A DNA stretch of 64,000 nt, taken from NCBI RefSeq assembly GCF_002077945.1, contig NZ_LVYD01000043.1, positions 186,001-250,000 of the forward strand. The letters are read 5' to 3'. A program made the position numbers and the translations under genes. The stretch's first letter is position 1; each line of letters opens with the position of its first letter. Source of the DNA: Niastella vici (lineage in GTDB: Bacteria > Bacteroidota > Bacteroidia > Chitinophagales > Chitinophagaceae). This document shows, piece by piece, positions 6,109 to 43,104 of this stretch. The notes under the pieces are model-generated. The model searched no databases. It saw nothing but the letters and a program-made list of their open reading frames with translations, and was not told where the DNA came from.

Positions 6109-6545
6109 AAGTGAACTTTTACTTTAAAAAATGATGTGGTAAGAAAAAGGGATCTACCAACGGTAAAAAAAATTATTCCTATCAAAAAGTGATCAACTCT
6201 TACGAAAAAGTAATGTACTTAAAATAAAATGATGTTACATCCGGAAAAAAGTAACTATCTATTCTTTAAATAATGTAAACTATTTTAAAAAAAACTATCT
6301 CCAATGCAGGAAAAGGTTATAGCTGCCAACAATGAAGTTATATCCGAAGAAAAAGTAGTTATCGCCCGTTAAAAGTAATTATCTTCTTCAAAAAAGTAAC
6401 TATCTCCCGGCAATAAGTATGTATCGTCCCCAAAAAGTAACTATCTCCCGGCAAAAAGTAATTATCTGCCCCCAAAAAGTAAGTATGACCCGGTAAAAAG
6501 TAATTATCGTCGAAAAAAAGTAACTATCTCGTGGAGAAAGTAGTT
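6109..6545 (+). repeat. ~21-bp tandem repeat array with phased A-tracts
   Basis: About 21-22 degenerate units, each an A-tract followed by a core close to AAAAAGTAACTATC and then a C/G-rich end. The G of the AAGT core falls at 6355, 6375, 6396, 6417, 6437, 6458, 6479, 6500, 6520 and 6540, so the spacing is 20-21 bp. The right third is most regular; units decay towards 6109, where the array abuts the truncated hydrolase. Single-base length differences between units argue against translation. Confidence 0.9.
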
Positions 6546-42142: not shown

Positions 42143-42446
42143 GGGTATAACAGAAAGGAATACTGGTAAACTTGTCCAGAGTATGGTCGGAATGATGATT
42201 TTCTTTCCCAAAAAAAGGTGTTAATTCCGGTTTTGAAACAAATTTGCGTATTCCTACGCTGGTAAGTATGCATTGTTTTATTTATTTTCATACCTTCTTT
42301 TTGAGGTCAACCAGTTGGAAATCAACGGGTGGTGGGCGGTTCTGCCATTGTGGGCGTTTGGGGAACCCGGCCGTAGCTTTGGCATGGTATGGGCCTTGCC
42401 TTATATATAACAGCAAAAGAATATAGTCTTCATAGGTATAGAAAGG
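42143..42446. other. Intergenic stretch with a possible tiny membrane peptide
   Basis: No firm gene. A plus-strand frame from about 42237 to 42413, without an ATG, encodes hydrophobic sequence ending WWAVLPLWAFGEPG and ALPYI, about 35 bp before a strong terminator. It may be a small membrane peptide with a non-standard start or a remnant. The alternative frame with a TTG start (42244-42426) looks less protein-like. Confidence 0.3.
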
Positions 42447-42474
42447 GCCTCCCGATGCATCGGGAGGCTTTTTT
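42447..42474 (+). terminator. Perfect-palindrome terminator
   Basis: GCCTCCCGATG is followed directly by its reverse complement CATCGGGAGGC and a run of six Ts. No annotated plus-strand gene ends just before it, which supports a short transcript in 42143-42446. Confidence 0.8.
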
Positions 42475-42581
42475 CGTTTTGGGGTAATAATAATTATTGA
42501 ATATTATTGCTAACTTTCGAACATTGTCGTGGTTATATAATTTGACAAACAGATTTCGGATTTTGAAGATCATAAGTTCTC

Positions 42582-42896
42582 AACTTTCGCCCCACTGTTC
42601 GCAACTTACGCCCCAATGTTTTGAACTTTCCAGGCAATCTTCGAAACTTTCCAGGCGATGTTTTGAACTTTCCACACAATCTTCGCAACTTTCCAGGCGA
42701 TGTTTTGAACTTTCCACAAAAAGTTGCGAACAAGTGCCCCATCATTTGTAACAAGTGCCCCATCATTTGTAACAAGTGCCCCATCATTTGTAACAAGTGC
42801 CCCATGGTTTGCAATAAGTGTCCCATCGTTTACAACAAGTGTCCCATCGTTTGCAACAAGTGCCCCATAGTTTGCAACATATGCGGCGTCCTAAGC
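42582..42896 (+). repeat. Tandem array, 15 units with exact 21-bp period
   Basis: Units start at 42582 and every 21 bp to 42876 without a single insertion or deletion. Units 1-7 follow AACTTTCCAGGCGATGTTTT with variants; units 8-14 follow AACAAGTGCCCCATCATTTG; the first three of these are identical. Unit 15 is divergent. All begin AA(C/T). Because 21 is a multiple of three and units lack stops, frames stay open on both strands, giving heptads such as NKCPIVC or MGHLLQM; none is accepted as a protein here. Confidence 0.95.
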
Positions 42897-43104
42897 AACC
42901 TTCCAACCGAACTTTCCAGGAACAATTCCAGATAATCTATCTGTTGTGTAAAATGATTGACATTGGTTCCATTTCGCCTGATTGAATTGTAATTGATTAA
43001 ATTTGCTTCCATTCAATATGTAAAGGATTACTAATAATGGTGGATAATAGAATACCTTCCTGGTTTTTTCCAGAACAGCTACCTTTAGGCTCTTAAACTA
43101 CCAT

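Follow-up and report, generated by a model that had tools for sequence, protein, structure and literature searches.

A 21-bp-period array of Niastella vici as one copy of a dispersed, probably non-coding minisatellite family

The window analysed in this study (a stretch of 64,000 nucleotides of the 10.06-Mb Niastella vici genome) carries an array that we consider, with a probability of about 0.68, to be one copy of a dispersed, non-coding, modular Niastella minisatellite, spread as non-autonomous cargo. The family is intergenic and multi-copy, its members have a common order of blocks and a variable number of units, and at the window site it is present as an insertion. Transposition would account for its spread, with the part of a transposase proposed solely by analogy with a second array family, residing in N. 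koreensis. The best reading of the element is a mobile minisatellite resembling BrickBuilt, which is mostly passive cargo.

The features of the window that bear on this reading are listed below.
42447..42480, plus strand: terminator-like hairpin followed by a T run, to the left of the insertion and outside the element; a similar hairpin is present in 8/8 aligned species
42481..43074, plus strand: inserted block of ~594 bp with the array and tail inside; defined by the eight-genome intergenic alignment, ends placed by eye
42582..42623, plus strand: block A, 2 units of the GCCCC type; family consensus AACTTAGGCCCCAATGTTCGC
42624..42707, plus strand: block B, 4 units (AACTTTCCA..), with a 42-bp alternation (super-period)
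42708..42728, plus strand: hinge unit at the border of B and C
42729..42875, plus strand: block C, 7 units (AACAAGTGCCCC; AACAAGTGCCCCATCGTTTGC)
42876..42896, plus strand: terminal unit E (AACATATGCGGC..)
42897..43010, plus strand: tail common to other copies, right edge approximate
6350..6530, no strand assigned: second 21-bp array, weaker than the first, degenerate and of another sequence family (AAAAAGTAACTATCTCCCGGC); recognized by Tandem Repeats Finder and lag matching, period 21, also 41

The array (42582-42896, 315 bp) is composed of 15 units of 21 bp which follow one another free of indels, and the exact period and unit number read by the initial annotation were thus borne out; the unit parser (locus L038) extended the phase by one unit to the right, giving 16 units with 15/15 spacings of 21. 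Matches at lag 21 reach 127/147 positions at the array, compared with a window mean of 40.2, and the array is far above the chance level. Tandem Repeats Finder reported a period of 42 at 42616-42718 (score 185) and of 21 at 42724-42879 (score 219). Where two unit subfamilies had been described, five unit types (A, B, hinge, C and E) can in fact be distinguished, and the units are built of near-invariant patches (AAC, CCCA, GTT) interspersed with free positions. Elsewhere in the genome the E motif is found 11 times at two mismatches or fewer (the window copy itself has 3 mismatches), and the tail, about 100 to 180 bp in length, is shared by subsets of copies.

The array is located between a rhomboid protease gene (minus strand) and the gene of a sigma-54 response regulator (plus strand). 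High-scoring matches to the regulator were obtained in 9/10 Niastella genomes, N. vici included (the exception being G007), and the rhomboid gene accompanies it in seven congeners as well, while it was not found in the G006 stretch. Alignment of this intergenic region from N. vici and 7 congeners placed the insertion with its array at the syntenic site in 0/7 of the latter. A similar array at the same intergenic position of relatives, by which the initial annotation proposed to check its reading, is consequently missing from all seven, because the element is dispersed. One congener (G002) carries a different extra sequence at this site. Comparison of the window junctions with the 7 congeners yielded no readable target-site duplication, the site having diverged. 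No tRNA gene was found in the window, and a scan for sigma-70-type patterns gave 4 sites against 3.4 expected, with 0 inside the array. The sequence immediately preceding the insertion (42424-42480, upstream of the response regulator) contains a conserved 17-base motif and then the terminator-like hairpin in 8/8 aligned Niastella; as judged by eye, the stem has changed on both sides between species, and the pattern scan reports it (42447-42480) on the minus strand only. This motif and hairpin are a possible candidate for a small RNA or an attenuator.

A blast search of the N. vici genome with the array gave 17 matches, corresponding to at least 13 distinct, dispersed places; 4 of these are at most 130 bp away from the end of a contig, and some could therefore represent a single array split in two. 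Searching with the end motif added copies on contigs C51 and C1, plus three weak places (C54, C56 and C124:20647), of which those on C54 and C124 sit inside other 21-bp arrays. Identity to the window copy over the main matches ranges from 73 to 88%, and we therefore see no recent transposition of this family. The 15 parsed loci have a common block order, D-A-B-hinge-C-E, with a few stray labels (e.g. AABBBBHCCCCCCCE or DDAAABBBBBHCCCCCE), in which block sizes vary by whole units and blocks are sometimes absent. The unit nearest to a given one came from its own array at a higher frequency than after shuffling (0.42 vs 0.10 for A, 0.25 vs 0.09 for B and 0.28 vs 0.10 for C; L058 left aside), as local duplication would give. 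Translations of the genes flanking 14 loci reveal no common theme, and a tRNA gene lies within about 250 bp of 2/14 loci (L045, L052).

Outside N. vici the family is sparse. Matches were obtained in at least 4 of 79 genomes (a lower bound, at most 9 first-look candidates having been scored per genome), i.e. in the own genome and in 3 of 78 relatives, all of them Niastella, where the matches are weaker and partial. The exact B-block pattern was met in one GTDB genome record, a Niastella MAG (records close to N. vici were perhaps excluded), and, when as many as 2 mismatches were allowed, in 4 of 294 genomes of the taxonomic family: the own genome, two congeners and, as a single match, one other genus. 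Plasmid records gave no match to the array. Several loci of the own genome deserve separate mention. At L045 (contig C73) an ISAon1-type end and a tRNA-Pro gene lie together with a window-family array within a span of about 650 bp. The end of C124 (L050) and the start of C51 (L052) each show, by eye, a partial E unit and, behind it, inverted copies of a single sequence, a picture resembling the insertion of an IS into an array.

The window family is short (an array and tail of a few hundred bases), non-coding and dispersed over 13 places, as are miniature inverted-repeat transposable elements (MITEs). Terminal inverted repeats were sought by comparing the left 350 with the right 400 bases of 12 loci (10 from the own genome, and L056 and L058 from congeners), and none were found in 12/12. 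Such ends do occur in the N. koreensis family. The array at 341560-341900 of the N. koreensis genome (G004) gave 15 matches (13 places above 60 bp and a 54-bp one), with identities of 97-100% in seven, and its full copies are elements of ~530 bp terminated by 27-bp inverted repeats (GGATCA..GGGGGATTT). Ends of this kind, with up to 3 mismatches, are present in 10/10 genomes searched (the own genome and nine congeners). In G001, two reading frames lie between such ends, and an 8-bp direct duplication flanks the whole; the frames match the upstream and downstream ISAon1 models (NCBIfam NF049917, NF049916), and the downstream frame also matches the ISL3 transposase (Pfam PF01610). The array family has the inverted repeats in common with these ISAon1/ISL3 insertion sequences, which, unlike it, encode a transposase; no 21-bp array was seen on reading the IS at L159. 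A 30-base stretch in the left part of the N. koreensis element matches the transposase region of that IS, and the element therefore looks like an array-bearing deletion derivative of an IS. Of 12 loci examined, 7 were two-ended, and a target duplication of 8 or 9 bp could be recognized in two of these (L251, L248), none being readable in the other five. The N. koreensis 21-bp family is thus a true MITE with ISL3/ISAon1-type ends, and has evidently been spread by transposition.

Several further observations concern the surroundings and folding of the N. koreensis elements. A complete tRNA gene lies within 500 bp at 7/13 places, in 6/7 cases with the element on the tRNA 3' side (the loci with ISAon1/ISL3-type ends close to tRNA genes are L154, L160, L162, L164, L248, L251 and L060). 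Loci of other Niastella that carry the terminal inverted repeats alone (L178-L207, several of them cut by contig ends) have a tRNA gene within about 250 bp in 10/25 cases, with 10/10 on the 3' side, which suggests that ISAon1/ISL3-type insertion is targeted downstream of tRNA genes. At L154 (1996-2441) a perfect 102-bp tandem repeat, which takes in the 3' portion of a tRNA-Met gene, begins exactly where the array element ends. The N. koreensis arrays at 321033 and 360561 are palindromic, with 21/42-bp repeats, and on both strands fold far beyond shuffled sequences (z -6.7/-6.8 and -8.6/-5.9, respectively); together with the palindromic array at 108823 (z -6.4/-1.8) these give the strongest folds, and several other arrays fold at z -2 to -3.6.

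Taken together, these data are consistent with a scheme in which arrays would arise and change in length through duplication of units, with units gained and lost by slippage or unequal exchange. Some arrays may have been trapped in, or derived from, non-autonomous transposons, and an IS transposase acting in trans could then spread the array-bearing elements. The window family would be an older one, whose transposon ends have decayed or were never present. The array may also locally affect neighbouring transcription, as can other bacterial MITEs, whose influence on the transcription of neighbouring genes is described in the consulted excerpts of PMC10969869.

The initial annotation had also envisaged a protein built of heptapeptide repeats, NKCPIVC or, in antisense, MGHLLQM, and this reading we now regard as extremely unlikely. 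It was based on a wobble pattern, and among the 7 local C units the differences do favour third positions (partly through three identical units); the pattern vanishes over the 48 distinct C units of the family. Counting distinct units only in 15 parsed loci (C, 48 of 60; B, 42 of 44; A, 29 of 32; E, 15 of 17), the differences at the three codon positions amount to 41/52/43 in C, 73/47/36 in B, 33/42/43 in A and 24/9/23 in E, none of which departs from permuted positions, so the codon-position bias sought in homologous arrays did not materialize as a third-position excess. Five of 13 copies keep the NKCP frame open across the array (L038, L041, L042, L043 and L047, the last cut by a contig end; three of the five have a stop at the left edge), but an open frame is expected of any stop-free unit whose period is divisible by three. 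Shifts or stop codons interrupt the frame in 4 copies (L039, L040, L044, L045), and in the remaining 4 the C block or the NKCP motif is absent (L046, L048, L049, L050). Even the open copies, with 22 distinct C units and differences of 13/17/15 by codon position, show no synonymous excess (14 of 45 synonymous against 28% expected, P 0.62), and the 3-bp harmonic, at a share of 0.044, is one of the two smallest of ten in the 23 arrays analysed for spectrum. The array probably encodes nothing.

Two readings in terms of protein-binding sites were weighed against the flanking genes and the distribution of transposases. The IS21 transposase binds repeated sites of ~22 bp, and the single IS21 copy of the own genome (C66, 46894; L018) indeed has repeated units of ~22 bp close to its ends, in which CCCC and GTT are similarly ordered, so that the array might be an amplified end of such an element. 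The likeness of its sequence to the units is slight, however, N. koreensis has 21-bp arrays with no match to IstA (PF22483), and the neighbours of the window array are the rhomboid protease and response regulator genes. With no transposase gene beside the window array and no co-occurrence in N. koreensis, this candidate was rejected as highly improbable. Direct repeats 21 bp apart with GTT-centred cores would fit operators of the LytTR type, and the array might serve as the multi-site operator of such a regulator with two-turn spacing. However, the genes next to the element are unrelated from one locus to another, and 7/7 aligned congeners have no copy upstream of the orthologous response regulator; once the flanking genes had been read, an operator of this type was set aside as scarcely credible. 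A structured RNA family was likewise dismissed: Rfam gave a single sub-threshold match, to RcsR1 (19.4 bits at a cut-off of 60, E 0.36), which lies outside the array, and the window array does not fold well beyond shuffled sequences (z -2.1/-0.3 on the two strands, and -1.5/-0.1 in a second run with slightly different ends).

The reading as a dispersed minisatellite does not by itself account for the period, which extends beyond the window family. In a survey of non-coding DNA (400 kb from each of three Niastella genomes, with 5-9-bp microsatellites masked), we detected 10, 11 and 7 arrays at lag 21, as against at most 2 at each of the lags 19, 20 and 22, and none at lag 21 in 800 kb (89.3 kb non-coding) from four other genera. 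These counts overstate the number of independent arrays, since some look 7-bp-based by spectrum (e.g. G004 78560, G000 347686 and G000 379290) and others are neighbours or relatives (G000 26034/26261, G004 394258/394459 and G004 2353/341632). By eye, the 21-bp families are dissimilar, including AACTATG..CATAGTT-like, CCTGGG-centred, palindromic CAGTT/AACTG, A-tract and TTAAACG types. The occurrence of dissimilar 21-bp arrays in the samples of three Niastella genomes and of none in those of four other genera is unlike the prediction for a chance satellite, and random slippage does not explain the common 21-bp step of unrelated families. Lags 14 and 16 were also frequent in the Niastella samples (4, 5, 3 and 5, 7, 2 arrays, respectively), and arrays at one or both were present in 3/4 control genera. 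Judged by lag, the enrichment of 14 and 16 in the non-coding DNA of N. vici (G000) and N. koreensis (G004) reflects 7-/8-bp intergenic microsatellites.

Two turns of B-DNA are the natural guess for the shared step (21 = 2 x 10.5), and, in line with the two-turn phasing offered by the initial annotation as its other reading, the arrays might be platforms for a putative DNA-binding protein that contacts them every two helical turns, the period being kept in unrelated families by selection on phase and not on sequence. The excess at lag 21 over its neighbours and its confinement to Niastella in the survey speak for this, as do the alternation of invariant patches with free positions and the listed unit spacings, 143/168 of which are exactly 21. 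On the other hand, spacings of 20, 22 and 43 also occur (3, 7 and 3 times), lags 14 and 16 are abundant too, and the 10.5-bp harmonic is not clearly above those of 21 and 7 bp: in the ten-harmonic spectrum of 23 of 27 arrays (four below 105 bases were excluded) the top shares are 0.177 for 7 bp, 0.143 for 21 bp and 0.134 for 10.5 bp, and with A+T vs G+C alone 0.161, 0.145 and 0.156, respectively. Moreover, the period of BrickBuilt, according to excerpts of PMC4596501, is 23 bp. We consider helical phasing unlikely as the explanation. The corresponding genus-wide rule, in which a putative nucleoid or transposition protein polymerising at 21-bp spacing would select intergenic arrays for phase and not for sequence, is similarly doubtful. 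Many families with one helix-matched period, in a soil genus distant from Porphyromonas, would yield a testable rule, and would offer a means of examining if DNA phasing is under selection in bacteria independently of sequence.

Among known systems, the BOX elements of Streptococcus pneumoniae are comparable, by description, to the dispersed Niastella minisatellite in that they consist of ordered modules, the middle one of which can be repeated, and are intergenic and dispersed; to our knowledge, they contain no 21-bp unit. In our literature search 21-bp arrays of Niastella did not appear, and minisatellites on mini-transposons of Bacteroidota were described, in the papers found, from Porphyromonas only. 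The excerpts of PMC3751351 mention N. koreensis solely for the use of its genome in testing k-mer counting. Within Porphyromonas gingivalis, PgRS/MITE464 (41-nt repeats inside a MITE, as given in excerpts of PMC4596501) is likewise an array within a MITE, differing in period and sequence and likened here by description alone.

The closest known system is BrickBuilt of P. gingivalis, which the same excerpts (PMC4596501) describe as a 23-nt minisatellite within a MITE with IS5-type ends, present in 19 copies in one strain, of which 4 retain both ends, and having promoter activity in both directions. On this partial description, the two have in common a host of the Bacteroidota, direct repeats spanning roughly two helical turns within a dispersed, intergenic, non-coding element, a variable number of units, leader and tail flanks (the tail being clear in the window family and the leader not) and a narrow host range. 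They differ in the unit (23 nt in BrickBuilt, 21 bp in several ordered types in Niastella) and in the ends, which are of the IS5 type in BrickBuilt, were not found in the window family and are of the ISL3/ISAon1 type in N. koreensis. Furthermore, BrickBuilt, as far as the excerpts describe it, is a single family, whereas Niastella harbours many dissimilar families with one period. Many array families sharing one period would turn what has been a curiosity, a minisatellite in a mini-transposon, into a testable rule.
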